19,192 bases of DNA from Desulfobacteraceae bacterium. Its GTDB lineage: Bacteria > Desulfobacterota > Desulfobacteria > Desulfobacterales > SURF-15. The stretch's first letter is position 1. Every line of letters starts with the position of its first letter. A program made the position numbers and the translations under genes. The notes under the pieces were generated by a model. That model was not told where the DNA came from, did no database searches, and saw only the letters and a program-made list of their open reading frames with translations. This document shows positions 6,769 through 19,192 of this stretch, piece after piece. The stretch spans positions 1 through 19,192 of the forward strand of contig QZKK01000266.1 of the NCBI GenBank assembly GCA_003599475.1, written 5' to 3'.

Positions 6769-7149
6769 CTAACTGGTCAGCGGAAGCACCCTGTCGAGCC
6801 TATAGAAGACCAGAAACCGTGCCTCTCCGGCCGACGCTTGGTCGTATTCGGGAATTGAACGTTCCGAGATCCTCCCGCCGGCGGCCTCTTCCTCCCGAAT
6901 CTTCGTAAGGAAGAGGCGCACCCCTTTGTACCCATGGCCGGCCTCGATGTACAGGTAGGCGGCATGGGGATTTGACAGTGTGTTGTAATGGGTCAGCCTG
7001 TCCGCCATGGCAAATACCAGAGTGCCGTCGCCGGCAAAGTGCGGGCGGGCGTAAAGGGCGGCGTCCACTTTGCCCAGCCCGTCGGCAGTCGCCAGGACGC
7101 CGAGGCCCGGGGTGGTTTCAAAATAAGTCTTCAACTCCGTTTTTTCCAT
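6769..7149 (-). CDS. PPOX-fold (pyridoxamine-phosphate-oxidase-like) flavoprotein
   Basis: A short split-barrel protein of 126 aa of the pyridoxamine 5'-phosphate oxidase-like superfamily. These bind FMN, F420 or haem and carry out small redox reactions in the cytoplasm. Visible pattern: GLGVLATADGLGKVDAALYA (strands 1-2), GTLVFAMADRLTHYNTLSNP (the flavin-contact segment) and HAAYLYIEAGHGYKGVRLFL. It is about the size of the single-domain members and too short for true PdxH. Start: ATG 7149 with AAAGGAG 5-6 nt upstream. It is the last gene of the leftward operon, 58 nt after the lipoprotein gene. Substrate unknown. Confidence 0.85.
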   Translation of the reverse strand: MEKTELKTYFETTPGLGVLATADGLGKVDAALYARPHFAGDGTLVFAMADRLTHYNTLSNPHAAYLYIEAGHGYKGVRLFLTKIREEEAAGGRISERSIPEYDQASAGEARFLVFYRLDRVLPLTS

Positions 7150-7207
7150 CACGCTCCTTTCGAACCGCAACAGCGCGCGTATTCCCGCAGCTTGCATTCT
7201 TTTTCCT

Positions 7208-7855
7208 TCAATCGATCAGGTTCTTATAGCGGACCAACCCCTTTTCCGGGCTGTAGATGAAATTTTCCCTGAATTCCAATTCACCGTTTCCCATGGTCAT
7301 TTCCCAATCATATTCGAGGGAATAGGGGATTCCTTTGTAGGAGAAGTTCAGGTTTTTTATGGTGATTCTGGCATTCTTGGCAACCGGCCGTCCGTCGATG
7401 TATTCATAGAAATCGAAAGCCCGAGCCTCGCCTTGGGACCATTGACCGATCGGGAAAAGCGGCTGCCCGGAGAAAGTCCGGATTTCACGGGAAGGTCTTT
7501 CATCGAAGACTTTGACCAAAGCGGTCCCTTCGGAGTTTACGGTGAACAACTGGGTCTTGAGACCGTCTTTCTGTTTGTTGACCCGTCGGTAAACCACCAT
7601 TTTTTCCCCGGTGACCGGGTGCGTCCAATCAATAGGACCCGTGATCTGCTTATCCCGTTTGTCTCCGAAGGTCTTTTCTGCCGCCCTCAGACGGACTTCT
7701 CGAGATCCGCTCCAGGATTCTCCGGTCCATAATTCCATCGGAACAAAGCGTGCTCCCTGACGGGCGGCAGAGTCTTCCCAGGTCTTCAAGTCGGGTCCGG
7801 CGCAGCCCGCTGAAAGGATCAAAGATGTGAGTGAAGCAATCAAAAACCGTTTCAT
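7208..7855 (-). CDS. Predicted lipoprotein of unknown function
   Basis: A 215-aa protein with a classic lipoprotein signal: MKRFLIASLTSLILSAGC, where K-R, a hydrophobic core and the lipobox L-S-A-G-C give Cys18 as the lipidated residue. The mature part looks beta-rich, with alternating charged and aromatic stretches (WTHPVTGEKMVVYRRVN, NLNFSYKGIPYSLEYDWEMT). I do not recognise a family. Residue 19 is alanine, not aspartate, so outer-membrane sorting is likely if Lol rules apply. Start: ATG 7855 with AAAGGAG 8 nt upstream; the frame continues further upstream but through the end of the ABC-hydrolase gene. It lies 16 nt after that gene, so the two are very likely one transcript, and the lipoprotein may be the envelope partner of the transporter. 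Confidence 0.85.
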   Translation of the reverse strand: MKRFLIASLTSLILSAGCAGPDLKTWEDSAARQGARFVPMELWTGESWSGSREVRLRAAEKTFGDKRDKQITGPIDWTHPVTGEKMVVYRRVNKQKDGLKTQLFTVNSEGTALVKVFDERPSREIRTFSGQPLFPIGQWSQGEARAFDFYEYIDGRPVAKNARITIKNLNFSYKGIPYSLEYDWEMTMGNGELEFRENFIYSPEKGLVRYKNLID

Positions 7856-7871
7856 GGATGGGCTCCTTTCT

Positions 7872-10313
7872 TTACATACGGTCAAACAGAAAATGAAAAA
7901 CCTCCGACCCCATAGCCCCTTTTTGCATACACTCCGAAAAACTATGGGTGCAGGAGGGAAGGGCGCGAAAAATAAACTCCGTATCAAGCCCTTGAGCGGC
8001 GGCGGCTTCCCGCATTGCATGAGTCCAGTTTCTCGCTCTTTCAAGCCGTGTGACCCCCTGCTGCCGGTCGATGCGGCGGGATGCTCTGAGTACGACATCC
8101 CGGCTCACGTCGTCTTCCCCGACTAGCGAACAAACCGGAATCTGCAGAAACCGTTTAGGCTCGAAGTCGATTCCGGGAAGTTTCGAAGATCTTCCGGTTC
8201 CCTGGGGGTAGGGGAGATCGGGATCCGGATACGTATACCATCCGGCGGCTGCTGCGACTGCGCGCTCCACCCGATCGGGGTGTGCCATGGTATATCGGTG
8301 AGCGAACTGCCCGCCTCCCGAATATCCAAACAGGTATACTTTTCGGGTGTCGGCTCCTGTGAGCCTCTGAACGTCGGAAAGAATCTTTTGAAGCGCCAGA
8401 TCGGCCCGGTCCCCTCTTCCTTTCCGACCGAGGCGCTGGTAGTCGGGAAACCGCGTCTGCGCAAACAAGGGGGATACCAGTATCACGCCGTATTTTTCGG
8501 CCAGTTCAGAGAAAAGAAGCGTTTGCTCCTTTGCCCTTCGATGGATGCCGTGAACGGTGACCAGCACACGCTTTTCCCGGCCGAAATGAACAGGCTGATA
8601 AAGAAAATAGGAAAGCTCCGGATCGTCGGGAACCACCCGGGCGCATACCCGACCAAGAGAAGGCGGCGGATATTCGATTGTTGCGAGTCTGCCGTTTTCC
8701 AGATGCCAAACGGCATCTGCATTTTTCTGCCGCTCGGCCCGGTGAGTCACCAAAATGACAGTGCGCGGGTAAAAGCCGAGAATCCTTTCCAGCAGGCGGT
8801 CGGCATCCGCATCCAAATGGGCTTCGGCTTCATCGAGCAGAAGGATGTACGGTTCGCCGAGCAGGGCACGGGCAAGAGCGATCCGCTGTCGCTGGCCGAA
8901 TGAAAGATTCCCTCCGCCTTCGCTCAGCCGGGTTTGATCCCCCTTCGGAAGCTCGGCCAGCACCGCATCGAGCTCGCAGAGTCTGCGCACCCGCTCCAAT
9001 TCCTCTTCCGGAGCTTCGGGCCAGCGGTAGCGGAGGTTTTTTTCTACTTTTCCGCGCAAAAGCGGAAGATCCGGACTCACCATTCCGACGGCTCGACGCA
9101 CAGAAGAGAGCCTGCAGCCGGTAAGATCCTGGCCGTCAAGAAGGATCCGGCCTCTGTCAGGATTCACCAGCCGCGCGATCAGAGAAAGAAGTGTGGACTT
9201 GCCGGCGGCGTTCGGTCCCGTCAGCACGATCACCATCCCGGGGTGAACGGTTCCAGAAATGCTTTCGAGCCCGTCTTCAACGGAGACATCCACCAGATCC
9301 AGTCTTCCTGCTCCGGGCTTCAGGCGGGGAGTTTTAAATGGCGATACACCGGTTGCGGGTGTCGACAGAAACTCATCGATTTTACATGAGCTTACCGCCG
9401 CGCTGTGCCAGTACTCGTAAACACGCCCGAGGTCGCGCAATGATGGGACCAGCAGGCCGACGATGGTCATGGAGGCGACCACCGTGCCGGGTGTCGCCCG
9501 CCCTGCGGACACCTCGTTTGCGCCAAGAATCAGCAAAATCGCGCTTGAAAGTGCAATGGTCGCCTGGGAAACGGCACGCAGCCGGCCGATTTTCCCCGCA
9601 CGTTCGATCATGGCGTCCCTCAACCTCCGGCTCTGGCGGCCGATCCTGCGCCGCTCCCGGCGAGATTGCCCGAAAACCTGGACCACCGGCATGACCGCGA
9701 TTTTCTCGTTTACGTTTGCCGCAAGAACAGCACGGCGGCGGCGGCTCTCTTTCACCGCAGCCCGTATGCGCCTGCCGAGCCTGAAGGCATGAACGGTTCC
9801 GGCGCTCACCACCACGGCGACACCGGCTGTGAGGCGCCAGTTGACGGCCGCCAGGGCCGTGAGTGCGATTACGGTATTGACCCCGGAGACGGTCATCCGG
9901 GCAAACCCAAAGCTCACCCACTGCTTGAGCGCGTTCAAATCTCCGATAAAGCGTAAAACGATGGCCCCCCGACTGCGTCGCTGTAAAGTCCTCGAAGGAA
10001 GTGCGCTCAAGTGTTTGAACATCAGGATCCGGATTTGATGAATGTAATCCTGGCCCAGGCGTTCAGAATCCACACGCTCTCGCATTCGAAGCCAGGCCAG
10101 CACAGCCGCGCAGAATGCCAGGCCGCCGGCAATCCGAATCATCAGAGGGCCGTTGGGACCTCCTTCAAACGGGGTTGCGATGATGAGGCGGTCGAAGGCC
10201 GTTTTCACCAGCAAAACCGTCGTGACGGTGGCCAGAGCCTGGGCGAATCCGTTGGAAACGAGCCCGAAGATCAGCCTGGCTCTCCGGCCGGACATGAGTG
10301 TCGGCAGACTCAT
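7872..10313 (-). CDS. ABC half-exporter fused to alpha/beta hydrolase
   Basis: One frame of 813 aa. Residues ~10-310 are an exporter-type transmembrane domain (hydrophobic segments near 15-40, 58-75, 140-175 and 250-290). Residues ~335-545 are the ATPase: Walker A GPNAAGKST (366-374), signature LSFGQ (470-474), Walker B ILLLDE (490-495), H-loop His524. The Q-loop glutamine is replaced (VGMVSPD, Ser413). Residues ~560-813 form an alpha/beta hydrolase resembling polyhydroxybutyrate-depolymerase/feruloyl-esterase-like enzymes: oxyanion strand VLVTVHG, nucleophile elbow GYSGGG (Ser665), a likely Asp at 734-735 (VGEDD) and His790 (CTHSF). The hydrolase should be cytosolic because it follows the ATPase. 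Start ATG 10313 overlaps the preceding stop by 4 nt (ATGA), so translation is coupled. Such a fusion is not one I know as a characterised family. Substrate unknown. Confidence 0.9.
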   Translation of the reverse strand: MSLPTLMSGRRARLIFGLVSNGFAQALATVTTVLLVKTAFDRLIIATPFEGGPNGPLMIRIAGGLAFCAAVLAWLRMRERVDSERLGQDYIHQIRILMFKHLSALPSRTLQRRSRGAIVLRFIGDLNALKQWVSFGFARMTVSGVNTVIALTALAAVNWRLTAGVAVVVSAGTVHAFRLGRRIRAAVKESRRRRAVLAANVNEKIAVMPVVQVFGQSRRERRRIGRQSRRLRDAMIERAGKIGRLRAVSQATIALSSAILLILGANEVSAGRATPGTVVASMTIVGLLVPSLRDLGRVYEYWHSAAVSSCKIDEFLSTPATGVSPFKTPRLKPGAGRLDLVDVSVEDGLESISGTVHPGMVIVLTGPNAAGKSTLLSLIARLVNPDRGRILLDGQDLTGCRLSSVRRAVGMVSPDLPLLRGKVEKNLRYRWPEAPEEELERVRRLCELDAVLAELPKGDQTRLSEGGGNLSFGQRQRIALARALLGEPYILLLDEAEAHLDADADRLLERILGFYPRTVILVTHRAERQKNADAVWHLENGRLATIEYPPPSLGRVCARVVPDDPELSYFLYQPVHFGREKRVLVTVHGIHRRAKEQTLLFSELAEKYGVILVSPLFAQTRFPDYQRLGRKGRGDRADLALQKILSDVQRLTGADTRKVYLFGYSGGGQFAHRYTMAHPDRVERAVAAAAGWYTYPDPDLPYPQGTGRSSKLPGIDFEPKRFLQIPVCSLVGEDDVSRDVVLRASRRIDRQQGVTRLERARNWTHAMREAAAAQGLDTEFIFRALPSCTHSFSECMQKGAMGSEVFHFLFDRM

Positions 10314-11395
10314 TTGGCTTCGGAAAGTCGAATCACATTTTCTTCTTTTGATGCGGCAATCCAGCGGCCGAGCTGCTTTTTGACATCGGGGTTCCTCAGG
10401 AAATTGGAATCCACCACCGGAAGCCTGACCGTATTTTCCAATTCACGCATGGCAAGCGGGGACTGGCAGATGACGCCTCCTACAGCCATTACGTTCAAGC
10501 GATTTTCGAGCAGCCGCTGCACCCCTTCTTTGCCCCCGATGGAGTCTTTAAGGGTAAAAATTACTCCATCGACGGTTTCGGCAAAGGCCCTCGAGGAGAG
10601 AAGCGTTTCCGTCTCTTTTTGATACAATCCGTCTGCGACTTCAAGAACGATGGCCTCTGTCCCCGAGGCGCAGAGGTGTTGAACGAGGAGCTGCAGAATT
10701 TTTATGACCTTTTCGGTTTCCAGAAGATAGGTGGATGCATACCCGGCATCGGTGAAGTCATAGACCTGGACTGCGCCCGCATCCCACATGCACCAGGGGT
10801 CTCCGCCGGAGCCGGTACCGGTGACCTTGGCCGCGCCGACTCTCAAGCCTGCGCGGCTCAACCCATGGATCAAATCCGAGGCGGTCGTAGTCTTTCCGGA
10901 ATTCATGGAAGTGCCCACCACGGCGACGACGGGCGGTTTTTTCCTGTCGCACAGGCGGCCGGAAAGGGCGAAGTCCGAAAGGTTGATCGCTTCTCCATTG
11001 CGGTCCCCCAGAATTGCGATAGGGGCGATCTGGGTCGGCATCTTCATTTTGGAATGCTTTACCAGAAACTTGGAGGCGATGCCGCCACCTGCCACCAGGT
11101 GGCAGGATTCCAAAGATTCCGGGATGACCGATTCGAACTGATCGGGAGCATATCGGTTACCATAGGCGACGATGATTTCGTCTCCTGCAAAAAGCTGCGC
11201 TTTGCGGCCGTTTGTCAACTCGAGCCGTTTGTGCTGACCGAGCTTTTCCACACGGGCCAGCAAGAGATCTCCGGCAGCCGGGCGGACGTCTTGGTCGATC
11301 AGCGCCTCGACCGCCCGTAGATTTACCCGGCGGGTCGTGTAGGCAGCTTTCGCCCTGGCAAGACGCACCTCCCGCAAAGGACCGTGTTGCGCCAT
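10310..11395 (-). CDS. P-loop NTPase of unknown function, coupled to ABC gene
   Basis: A 361-aa protein in two parts. Residues ~1-130 form a beta-rich domain (AGDLLLARVEKLGQHKRLEL, FAGDEIIVAYGNRYAPDQF). Residues ~150-361 form a nucleotide-binding domain with Walker A GTSMNSGKTTT (161-171), then KVTGTGSGGDPWCMWDAGA and IVLEVADGLYQKET. The fold suggests the SIMIBI group, near dethiobiotin synthetase, MobB or the DUF1611 P-loop proteins; I cannot assign it more closely. Start ATG 11395 has a strong AGGAGG 8 nt upstream. It leads the four-gene leftward operon and overlaps the ABC-hydrolase gene by 4 nt, which suggests the two proteins work together, for example on a metabolite that is modified and exported. 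Confidence 0.8.
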   Translation of the reverse strand: MAQHGPLREVRLARAKAAYTTRRVNLRAVEALIDQDVRPAAGDLLLARVEKLGQHKRLELTNGRKAQLFAGDEIIVAYGNRYAPDQFESVIPESLESCHLVAGGGIASKFLVKHSKMKMPTQIAPIAILGDRNGEAINLSDFALSGRLCDRKKPPVVAVVGTSMNSGKTTTASDLIHGLSRAGLRVGAAKVTGTGSGGDPWCMWDAGAVQVYDFTDAGYASTYLLETEKVIKILQLLVQHLCASGTEAIVLEVADGLYQKETETLLSSRAFAETVDGVIFTLKDSIGGKEGVQRLLENRLNVMAVGGVICQSPLAMRELENTVRLPVVDSNFLRNPDVKKQLGRWIAASKEENVIRLSEAK

Positions 11396-12752: not shown

Positions 12753-12986
12753 ATGAAGCACCGGCACCTAAATATCGAAACGGATCGGTGGGGCGTCGCC
12801 GTGATCGAATCCATATGGGAGCGGGGTTCGGATGCCGACATTCGTGCGCTCCTCCGGGAATGCAAAAAAGATCCCTTCGGTCCCGCGGCGGATGCTGTTC
12901 GCCGGACGATCCCCCATTCTAAAGCATATGGCTACCCATCGATGTTTCGATACTTTTTGGATTATCTTGAGCGGGGACGGTTATGA
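12753..12986 (+). CDS. 77-aa protein, candidate antitoxin partner of NTase
   Basis: A small soluble protein that I do not recognise. It has an aromatic N-terminal strand (HLNIETDRWGVAVIESIWE), a charged helix (GSDADIRALLRECKKDP) and an aromatic C-terminal helix (GYPSMFRYFLDYLERGRL). No DNA-binding motif is obvious. Start ATG 12753 has GGAGGA 9 nt upstream. Its stop overlaps the start of the nucleotidyltransferase gene by 4 nt (ATGA, 12983-12986), the arrangement seen in toxin-antitoxin operons where the small first gene is made in slight excess. The antitoxin role is inferred only from size, order and overlap. Confidence 0.75.
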   Translation: MKHRHLNIETDRWGVAVIESIWERGSDADIRALLRECKKDPFGPAADAVRRTIPHSKAYGYPSMFRYFLDYLERGRL

Positions 12987-13669
12987 CGCAAAATCATGAA
13001 GAATGGGAGCGTCTTCTTTCTGCTGCCGCAGAGTTGCAGCATCTTATCCCTGGCTGTGTGCTTGTCGGGGGATCGGCTGCAGCAATTCATGCAAAACATC
13101 GTTTTTCACTGGATGTGGATCATGTTTTGACCGATCTTGAAAAACGTTTCGATGATCTTTTGGAGTTTTTGGAAAAGCACAAAGAGTGGAAAACAGCCCG
13201 AATCAACCCCCCAAAACTTATCTTGGGGAATTTTCGCGGCGTCGAAACCGGGCTGCGTCAACTGGTCCGGTCCCGACCCCTTGAAACCGAATCGGCTGAA
13301 GTCTCCGGAAAATCATTGACGATCCCGACTAAGGCCGAAATGCTGCGAATCAAAGCATGGCTGATCCTCATTCGCAATGCAACGAGGGATTTCATCGATT
13401 TTGCAGCCATTTCCGACATCCTCGGTGATTGGGAAGTCGTGGATGCCCTCAGGAAATTCGACCACTATTATCATGATACATACAGAGGAAACGAGGTCTC
13501 GCCATTGAACCAACTCAGCCGTCAATTGGCCGAACCCAAGCCCTTCGATCTCGATGATATCGATATTTCAGATTACAAAGGGATTTCGCCCCCGTTAAAC
13601 CGCTGGGAAACCATATCGCATGCCTGCAACCGGGTATCTGCCCTTTTGAGCGATATCCTTTCCGAATGA
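12983..13669 (+). CDS. AbiEii-like nucleotidyltransferase, candidate toxin
   Basis: A 228-aa protein of the DNA polymerase beta-like nucleotidyltransferase superfamily. The N-terminal half has the superfamily core: LVGGSAAAIH (GGS at 29-31, the nucleotide-phosphate loop) and FSLDVDHVL (D44-x-D46, metal-binding aspartates). The later segment LTIPTKAEMLRIKAWLILIR followed by RDFIDFAAISD (~111-145) is the lysine and R-D-x-x-D pattern of the AbiEii/AbiGii and MenT group, toxins that transfer nucleotides to tRNA or block translation. It is shorter than typical AbiEii (~300 aa). It is translationally coupled to the 77-aa gene upstream; no HTH antitoxin (AbiEi) is present. A housekeeping role in sugar-nucleotide or antibiotic adenylation is less likely given the pairing. 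Activity has not been shown. Confidence 0.82.
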   Translation: MTQNHEEWERLLSAAAELQHLIPGCVLVGGSAAAIHAKHRFSLDVDHVLTDLEKRFDDLLEFLEKHKEWKTARINPPKLILGNFRGVETGLRQLVRSRPLETESAEVSGKSLTIPTKAEMLRIKAWLILIRNATRDFIDFAAISDILGDWEVVDALRKFDHYYHDTYRGNEVSPLNQLSRQLAEPKPFDLDDIDISDYKGISPPLNRWETISHACNRVSALLSDILSE

Positions 13670-17347: not shown

Positions 17348-19192
17348 ATGAATAGACCACGCTGCCTCATCACCGGTATCAGTGGACTGCTCGGGAATAA
17401 TCTTGCCGATTATTTTAAAAACCGGTGGGAAATTCTGGGCCTGTATCATCGGAATCCGGTTTGTATCGATGGGGTATACACGCAAGGATGTGATATTACT
17501 GATTCTAAATCCATTTATAGAATCGTTGCAGATTTCGACCCCGATCTTCTTATTCATTGTGCGTCGCTGACCGATATCGATGAATGCGAAGTGGACCGAG
17601 AATATACACATCTCGTCAATGTCGAAGCAACTAGTTATATTGTAGAGTCAATAAGGGACAGAGATGCCAAACTGGTATATATCTCGACCGATGCGGTTTA
17701 TGACGGCGCCGGAGGTGGGTTCCTGGAAACGGATGAGGTCCGTCCGAGGAATTATTACGGGCTTTCCAAACACGAAGGGGAGCTTGAAGCACAGAAAAAA
17801 GAATCTGCACTGATTTTCCGCACGAATATTTTCGGTTGGAACATAATCGACAAGAAAAGTCTCGGCGAGTGGGTCGTTCATGCGCTCAAGGCCGGTGAAA
17901 CCATCAAAGGTTTTATCGATGCCGTTTTTTCATCCATTTATACGGTGGAACTGGCAAGGATCATCGATATCTCGCTGAAAAGAAACCTTTCAGGCACCTT
18001 TAACTGCGGGAGTGTGACGCCTGCCTCAAAATATGAATTTTGTAACAAAATTGCACACATATTTGGACTTGATGAAACATTGATTGTTCCATCATCCATT
18101 GAGGATTTCGGGTTTTGTGCGAAACGGGGGAAGAATCTGTCGCTCGATGTGGAAAAACTACAGGAAGCCTTAAATTATCAGTTGCCGACCCTTGATTATT
18201 GCATCGAGTCTTTTTACAGAGATTATCAAACCGGCAAACCGGAAATCATAAAATCGGGCCGATCGCTTAACAACCCATCCAACTTTATCAGCTACGGTAG
18301 ACAATGGGTTGACGCTAACGACATACGATCTGTTGTCGATGTGGTGAAATCAGGGCCTATCACCCAAGGGCCAAAGGTGAAAGCGTTTGAAGAAGCATTA
18401 CAAAACTATTGCAGCGCAAACTTTGCTGTAGCATTGAATTCGGGAACTTCCGGTCTTCACATTGCATGCTTGGCAGCAGTTTTAAAAGAAGGTGATGAGG
18501 GAATTACATCTCCGATTACCTTTGTCGCTTCCGCGAACTGCATGATTTATTGCGGCGGAAAGCCTGTTTTTGCAGACATCAACCCCAAGACTTATAACAT
18601 CTCCCCAGAAGAGGTCGAAAAAAAGATTACCTCCAAAACCAAAGTTGTCATTCCCGTCCATTTTGCTGGACAAAGCTGCGATATGGAGTCGATCTTTAGG
18701 ATCGTCAAAGATGCTGAAAACCGATTCGGGAACAAAATATACATCATCGAAGATGCCAGTCATGCCTTGGGCTCTGAATATAATGGAAGCAATGTCGGAT
18801 CCTGCGCTTACTCGGATATGGCAGTCATGAGTTTTCACCCGGTAAAACATATTACTACGGGTGAAGGTGGCGCAGTGTTCACAAACGACGAATCGCTTTT
18901 CAAGAGGTTGCGCCGTTTACGCTCCCATGGAATCACCAGCACTTTCGAGGAATTTGTCTTCCCCCGCAATGCACTTGCACTTTCCGATTCCGAAGATCAA
19001 AAATTGATCAATCCCTGGTATTACGAACAGATCGATTTGGGTTTAAACTATCGAATTACCGATATTCACTGTGCTTTGGGTATTTCACAGTTGAAAAGAT
19101 TGGGGCAATTCAAACGGCGCCGCCGGGAAATCGTGGGTCGAGCTCACCGCGGACGACTTCTTCGCCGGGATCGAGAAGCAGGCCGAGGACGG
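17348..19192 (+). CDS. RmlD-like reductase fused to PseC-like aminotransferase (3' end chimeric)
   Basis: One uninterrupted frame of 615 codons, open to the contig end. Residues ~1-295 are an RmlD-type SDR: GISGLLG (10-16) binds NAD(P), STDAVYDG (113-120), catalytic Y137-x-x-x-K141 (YYGLSK). After a linker (~296-312) comes a DegT/DnrJ/EryC1 PLP aminotransferase of PseC type: FISYGRQWVDANDIRSVV, SGPITQGP, ALNSGTSGLH, SPITFVASANC, IIEDASHALGS, and SFHPVKHITTGEGGA with Schiff-base Lys500. The linker has no stop and no methionine, supporting a true fusion. PseC aminates the 4-keto sugar made by PseB; the reductase half would instead reduce a keto group, so the two may give alternative or successive products. 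Start ATG 17348, 11 nt after pseB, without a clear ribosome site. From ~19128 the sequence is foreign, so the real C-terminus is missing. Confidence 0.85.
   Translation, partial: MNRPRCLITGISGLLGNNLADYFKNRWEILGLYHRNPVCIDGVYTQGCDITDSKSIYRIVADFDPDLLIHCASLTDIDECEVDREYTHLVNVEATSYIVESIRDRDAKLVYISTDAVYDGAGGGFLETDEVRPRNYYGLSKHEGELEAQKKESALIFRTNIFGWNIIDKKSLGEWVVHALKAGETIKGFIDAVFSSIYTVELARIIDISLKRNLSGTFNCGSVTPASKYEFCNKIAHIFGLDETLIVPSSIEDFGFCAKRGKNLSLDVEKLQEALNYQLPTLDYCIESFYRDYQTGKPEIIKSGRSLNNPSNFISYGRQWVDANDIRSVVDVVKSGPITQGPKVKAFEEALQNYCSANFAVALNSGTSGLHIACLAAVLKEGDEGITSPITFVASANCMIYCGGKPVFADINPKTYNISPEEVEKKITSKTKVVIPVHFAGQSCDMESIFRIVKDAENRFGNKIYIIEDASHALGSEYNGSNVGSCAYSDMAVMSFHPVKHITTGEGGAVFTNDESLFKRLRRLRSHGITSTFEEFVFPRNALALSDSEDQKLINPWYYEQIDLGLNYRITDIHCALGISQLKRLGQFKRRRREIVGRAHRGRLLRRDREAGRGR
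19128..19192 (+). other. Chimeric tail: GC-rich thiC-like fragment
   Basis: In frame from 19128 this encodes ELTADDFFAGIEKQAEDG (after K-S-W-V), which matches the T-x-D-D-x-F-x-x-I-E-K-Q-A-E-D-G-V-D-F region of ThiC (HMP-phosphate synthase). All codons from 19131 end in G or C, unlike the AT-tolerant gene before it, and the aminotransferase frame turns into arginine-rich nonsense at the same point. This is a join between two organisms' DNA, with the breakpoint at about 19115-19130. Confidence 0.8.

Follow-up and report, generated by a model that had tools for sequence, protein, structure and literature searches.

An ABC half-exporter joined to a C-terminal PahZ1/LpqC-type hydrolase, and the gene cassette in which the two recur

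The window, by which we mean the whole stretch of 19,192 nucleotides analysed here (contig QZKK01000266.1 of a Desulfobacteraceae bacterium), carries on its minus strand a gene in which an ABC half-exporter and an alpha/beta hydrolase form a single protein, flanked by the genes of a P-loop protein and a putative lipoprotein. The features are as follows.

7872..10313, minus strand: ABC half-exporter with a C-terminal alpha/beta hydrolase, one 813-aa protein in one open frame; both parts are matched in other fused proteins
8670..10313, minus strand: ABC transporter part (TMD and ATPase), residues 1-548; from Pfam, NCBIfam, structure model and Foldseek
7875..8660, minus strand: alpha/beta hydrolase part, residues 552-813; from PDB profile search and triad counts
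8319-8321, 8109-8111 and 7944-7946, minus strand: codons of the triad Ser665, Asp735 and His790, respectively, read from the sequence
10310..11395, minus strand: BioD/DUF1611-like P-loop protein of 361 aa, called DUF below; ATGA overlap with the fusion gene at 10310-10313
7208..7855, minus strand: putative lipoprotein of 215 aa, 16 nt behind the fusion gene

The reading frame of the fusion gene begins with ATG and is unbroken over exactly these coordinates, with no stop codon near residue 550. Its transporter half (residues 1-548) is a type IV ABC half-exporter. A Pfam scan of the fusion protein placed ABC_membrane at residues 47-289 (76 bits) and ABC_tran at residues 349-496 (102 bits), both over the cut-off, and gave a weak Abhydrolase_1 match at residues 638-700 (21.3 bits against a cut-off of 25.8), while the MsbA-type model of NCBIfam matched the transporter part at 227.9 bits, below its cut-off of 602. 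The nucleotide-binding motifs, to which we assign the names that we take to be customary, were complete in the alignment (Walker A, 366-374; LSFGQ, 470-474; DE, 494-495; H524). The AlphaFold model shows six long helices ahead of the ATPase and a low-confidence stretch (547-556) between the ATPase and the hydrolase; because its mean pLDDT was 73 and its pTM 0.40, no domain arrangement was read from it. The Foldseek matches listed are type IV exporters, TmrAB, TM287/288, MsbA, and PCAT1 among them. In the hydrolase part the triad is intact, and in an alignment of 115 rows, which are related and in a few cases repeat one protein, Ser665 was conserved in 115/115 and Asp735 and His790 each in 113/115. 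The initial annotation, which described an exporter TMD-ATPase running straight into a hydrolase with a serine, an acidic residue, and a histidine, is thus confirmed by the single frame, the Pfam and profile matches, and the aligned triad.

The joining is not peculiar to this contig. We found at least 10 further ABC-hydrolase fusion proteins besides that of the window, one of which (P0137) is a fragment. A search with the whole protein returned 1057 homologues, and at least 10 ABC-hydrolase proteins, including that of the window, were among the best 120 of the 1057, their make-up being checked by BLAST. Used alone as the query, the hydrolase part retrieved 24 proteins: the window protein, four ABC-hydrolase proteins (P0137 being newly found among them), 16 proteins in which the hydrolase is fused to the DUF instead of the ABC protein, one open reading frame joining the hydrolase to a barrel (P0121), and two others. 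Three kinds of joining were therefore seen, ABC-hydrolase, DUF-hydrolase, and hydrolase-barrel. P0121, in which the barrel is of the alginate-export type, was dropped as a secure fusion for a signal-like stretch, judged by eye, between its parts. Because six of the nine fused homologues that the whole-protein search had given escaped the hydrolase-part search, all fusion counts are lower bounds. Other records carry the same fusion, which excludes chance or misassembly as its origin, and a lost stop codon was likewise rejected; the initial annotation had allowed that homologues might always be encoded as two genes, and ten fused homologues were found. A phage search yielded 11 records that matched part of the query, none of them 80% of it, and among the five listed the ABC part was covered at about 27% identity.

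A seven-row profile of the hydrolase, compared with the PDB, matched PahZ1 and LpqC over nearly the whole hydrolase part at E-values from 2e-32 to 9e-36, including poly(aspartic acid) hydrolase-1 (PahZ1, 9o7u; 8.5e-36) and LpqC (3d0k; 9.4e-34). By single sequence, the same relatives gave modest scores of 63-81 bits. PHB-depolymerase models in NCBIfam reached an E-value of 3.6e-12 and stayed below their cut-offs (NF050058, 46.3 bits against 150; TIGR01840, 35.9 bits against 107.85). Judged by full-length homology and the Ser-Asp-His triad, the hydrolase is of the PahZ1/LpqC type. PahZ1 is described as cutting the beta-amide bonds of poly(aspartic acid) in an endo-type manner (PMC4456602). The earlier designation as an esterase goes beyond the evidence, one of the two closest solved relatives being a beta-amide hydrolase, although the bond may still be an ester because these relatives include LpqC, named a putative PHB depolymerase.

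We then considered the genes around the hydrolase. A genome scan with the hydrolase alignment gave 254 relatives, from which 79 distinct loci were kept, and the sample therefore favours close relatives. An ABC gene lies immediately upstream of the hydrolase in 61 of the 79 loci, 76 of which extend 600 nt or more in that direction. The DUF precedes that ABC gene in 49, upstream sequence of 3.2 kb or more being available in 61 loci. Downstream of the hydrolase, 39 loci have a barrel that belongs with the Porin_O_P relatives, and 73 extend 1.5 kb or more on this side; all four barrels scanned with Pfam were Porin_O_P. In seven loci the DUF stands directly ahead of the hydrolase and the ABC gene is absent. 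These seven belong to the 15 loci that have room for an adjacent ABC gene and lack one, together with four from Paenibacillus, in which neither ABC nor DUF was found within the stretch examined, and L014, L031, L041, and L064; an ABC gene of the cassette type occurs a few kb from the hydrolase in L031 and L041. ABC-hydrolase pairs among the 79 loci were unfused in 58 cases and fused in three (L045, L068, and L074, apparently the same proteins as P0002, P0015, and P0004), and in these three and in the window the DUF gene stands in front of the fusion gene with an apparent 4-nt overlap. L074 (6030-8300) has two P-loop genes in tandem at this position. The gene order was hydrolase-DUF-ABC in L081, L082, and L115, so that the order is shuffled and the partners are kept, and L108 has DUF-ABC with no hydrolase detected. 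The initial annotation treated the fusion protein as standing alone; the fusion itself holds, but the unit is an operon with the DUF and other genes. The lipoprotein gene is likely the third gene of this operon in the window. It gave no Pfam match, and a homologue, 43-46% identical, follows ABC-hydrolase in one other genome (L097/L112) and was absent from all other loci examined, while L002 and L006 have, by eye, a barrel-like gene in its place.

Carriers were few in the phyla sampled: the hydrolase was found in 5 of 297 genomes of G017's phylum at an E-value of 1e-30 (G017 included), and the DUF in 5 of 398 genomes of G001's phylum at 1e-20 (G001 included, two of them distant) and in 2 of 97 genomes of G013's phylum, both previously known carriers. 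The literature within our reach, from which subscription journals were mostly absent, yielded no paper on a DUF/ABC/hydrolase cassette and none on an ABC exporter with a C-terminal hydrolase fusion. Taken together, the fusions and the conserved neighbours define an operon that occurs in several phyla.

A general esterase or housekeeping hydrolase might simply travel with the operon, the fusion being a near-neutral loss of a stop codon devoid of functional meaning. In 24 of the 58 unfused pairs a possible start of the hydrolase gene overlaps the end of the ABC gene by 4 nt, so that a small change would fuse the two; however, two different partners from one operon are each found fused to the hydrolase, the partners stay together as the gene order changes, and at least two parts of the tree retain fused forms, and we regard this explanation as distinctly unlikely. 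In an ABC tree of 81 rows (L045 and L098 being one genome), the window groups with 14 rows at a support of 99/97; on the basis of title, source name, or phylum draw, seven of these were assigned to Desulfobacterota and one to Nitrospirota. The fused rows require four changes on this tree, or three without P0081, whose hydrolase part is only 31% identical and which perhaps arose by a separate joining event. A single clade of fused rows was rejected with a p-AU of 0.028 in a test that was chosen after the tree was seen and on a tree with several long branches; we therefore limit the claim to the alphaproteobacterial and the Desulfobacterota-side fusions, which on this tree are probably separate events.

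On which side of the membrane does the hydrolase work? The ATPase side of the exporter family is cytosolic, and because the hydrolase follows the ATPase, the fused hydrolase must be cytosolic. Among 58 unfused ABC-linked hydrolases, however, a 12-residue hydropathy rule marked the N-terminus as signal-like in 20 and did not in the other 38. These 58 come from loci with an ABC match above 250 bits, leaving out L031, L041, and the fused loci, and were chosen differently from the 58 unfused pairs of the overlap count. A stricter earlier rule had called 13 of 66 ABC-linked domains signal-like, with fused ones included. Five of the 38 negatives (L013, L015, L017, L020, and L023) come close to the threshold and belong, like most of the positives, to one 23-row clade, outside which L007, L040, L065, and L078 are also positive. 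The signal label needs 9 changes on the tree against 17-20 in the five shuffles listed. The initial placement of the hydrolase in the cytosol beside the ATPase thus stands for the fused forms and fails as a general rule, and this apparent change of membrane side is a sharp puzzle in its own right. As the hydrolase is kept with one transporter on either side of the membrane, it most simply acts on the cargo of that transporter.

The structure model of the DUF (pLDDT 92.5) matched dethiobiotin synthetase and TM0796 and has the P-loop fold of the latter, and SRP GTPases fit the model as well as BioD does. The DUF scored 23.4 bits against the DUF1611 model of Pfam, under the cut-off of 25, and had no confident family match in Pfam or in NCBIfam, where no DgcN model came up; its first 150 residues were unmatched in the comparison with DUF1611 and dethiobiotin synthetase. 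Acetyltransferase folds were absent among the best 50 fold matches listed, which excludes nothing. We take DgcN to be a DUF1611 member and an N-acetyltransferase. One distant DUF relative lies between argC and argR (L110, 3727-8239), in a genome in which ArgJ and ArgA were not found, and is possibly an alternative N-acetylglutamate synthase. A candidate DUF-hydrolase fusion on a Microvirga ossetica plasmid (L080) was dropped after Pfam showed a Mutator transposase joined to a piece of the DUF; this P-loop gene (6950-8713) lies beside annotated CapA, HlyD, and ABC genes.

Several loci give hints about the cargo. In L056 (8842-19146), the P-loop protein and the hydrolase occur with HlyD, a 7TM_transglut/ATP-grasp protein, and PGA_cap, and further genes encode a lamin-tail-domain protein and an ATP-grasp cyanophycin-like protein; L060 and L069 share this setting by clustering, and all three are possible polyamide synthesis-export loci. 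RimK ATP-grasp and Mur ligase genes lie near the DUF and the hydrolase in L041. A cyanophycin-synthetase N-domain was found in only 6 of 30 cassette genomes; polyamide genes are therefore not constant partners, and cyanophycin was rejected as such.

Taking these results together, we propose that the fusion gene is the fused form of a three-component cassette, a reading to which we give a probability of roughly 0.4. The DUF, as a BioD-fold P-loop enzyme, would build or N-acylate a compound that derives from an amino acid and is probably acidic, a homodimeric type IV ABC transporter would export it, and the PahZ1/LpqC-type serine hydrolase would cut an amide or ester bond of the exported compound at the transporter. 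Fused and signal-less hydrolases would cut in the cytosol just before export and the signal-bearing clade in the periplasm just after it; the fusion would tie one hydrolase to each half-transporter, and an outer-membrane barrel would often be part of the cassette. That enzyme and transporter share a cargo is likely. We are less sure of export rather than import, which is favoured by the exporter fold, the ligase/HlyD/PGA_cap settings (L056, L041), and the alginate-export-type barrel of P0121. An acidic amide-type cargo, suggested by the substrate of PahZ1, the porin type, and the same settings, and N-acylation by the DUF are leads only, drawn by analogy. The earlier idea that the hydrolase trims or activates a substrate before export remains the leading one and is partly supported, but a cytosolic site before export is not general. 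The fuller version, an undescribed class of ABC-coupled cassette for synthesis and secretion in which an N-acylating or ligating DUF, the transporter, and a hydrolase on either side make, move, and release a new type of acidic amide compound and the fused form cuts its cargo cycle by cycle, is in our view doubtful; if true, the fused protein would be a transporter that cuts its own cargo in this way with a C-terminal serine hydrolase.

Regulation bears on the direction of transport. A sigma-54-like site, scored with what we take to be the consensus, precedes the DUF in 11 of 62 upstream regions against about 1% of shuffles. Pho and Fur boxes were discarded, their top scores being about equal to those of shuffles. 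Five loci with a sigma-54-like site before the P-loop gene (L040, L049, L062, L070, and L077) also have nearby a histidine-kinase-family gene and an NtrC-like-looking response regulator; the Pfam scan covered just two kinases, those of L070 and L039, and the regulator was judged by eye.

Such sites would suit nutrient scavenging, and the cassette could serve import and digestion: the barrel would admit an acidic amide- or ester-linked oligomer, the exporter-fold transporter would work as an importer, the hydrolase would cut in the periplasm or at cytosolic entry, and the DUF would acylate the released amino acid for breakdown. IrtAB and YbtPQ are exporter-fold importers, IroE and Fes are siderophore esterases, and DgcN, which acylates D-glutamate, offers an analogy for the DUF. 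The Porin_O_P barrels, the presence of the hydrolase on either side of the membrane, and the position of Paenibacillus hydrolase genes near genes that look by eye like those of solute-binding proteins are in keeping with import, as is the role of DgcN, which is described as the key gene in a route that racemises D-acidic amino acids irreversibly (PMC12363236). Against it stand the type IV exporter fold, the HlyD, ligase, and PGA_cap settings suggestive of synthesis and export, and the alginate-export-type barrel of one relative (P0121); moreover, no solute-binding protein was noticed beside the DUF-ABC-hydrolase set. Import is thus conceivable but rather doubtful.

A distant DUF relative on a Priestia megaterium plasmid (L083, 4724-13412) lies among annotated genes for two ATP-grasp proteins, ornithine carbamoyltransferase, M20, and a PEP mutase-family protein, a set that looks like a phosphonate-peptide cluster. 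This annotation invites the idea of self-protection in a natural-product pathway, where the DUF and the hydrolase would interconvert the masked and the active form of an inhibitor that the ABC transporter would pump out. However, the cassette-type hydrolase and ABC protein were not found in that Priestia stretch and, by eye, no biosynthetic assembly-line genes were recognised beside the main cassettes, and we consider this idea very improbable.

Returning to the proposed export cassette, the window protein can be compared with known fusions. In it, as in PCAT1 and the C39 bacteriocin exporters, a cytosolic hydrolase that might process the cargo is fused to a type IV exporter. C39 bacteriocin exporters carry an N-terminal C39 cysteine peptidase, whereas the window protein has a C-terminal serine alpha/beta hydrolase, and membership of the PCAT group was rejected since Pfam gave no C39 match at an E-value of 0.001. 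IrtA, a mycobacterial siderophore transporter with an N-terminal flavin-binding siderophore-interaction domain, likewise couples an ABC protein of exporter fold to an enzyme domain in the cytosol; no N-terminal domain of that kind was matched in the fusion protein (Pfam, 0.001). PahZ1 and LpqC differ in being stand-alone enzymes. The cyanophycin metabolism-associated ABC transporter (NF052233) is a related exporter, against whose model the window protein scored 146.8 bits with a cut-off of 880, and ABC stretches 31-34% identical adjoin cyanophycin-synthetase-like genes in L086 and L089. The window protein adds a C-terminal serine hydrolase, probably fused more than once, to the N-terminal (C39) hydrolase-ABC fusions. 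The fused form lets the operon be tested with one protein, in which the substrate of the enzyme should be the cargo of the transporter.

An Rfam scan of the window gave no match. Bases 1-18 resemble the end of what we take to be an Illumina adapter, so that the contig starts in untrimmed adapter. At about 19117-19192 an aminotransferase-like frame turns abruptly GC-rich and another frame reads, by eye, like a different protein; the last ~75 bases may be a chimeric end. On the plus strand at about 12754-13669, a 77-aa ORF and the gene of an AbiEii-type nucleotidyltransferase (PF08843, 25.4 bits against a Pfam cut-off of 22.5) share 4 nt and are possibly a type IV toxin-antitoxin pair, and positions 1263-2360 of the same strand encode a histone-deacetylase-family protein (PF00850, 139.5 bits).
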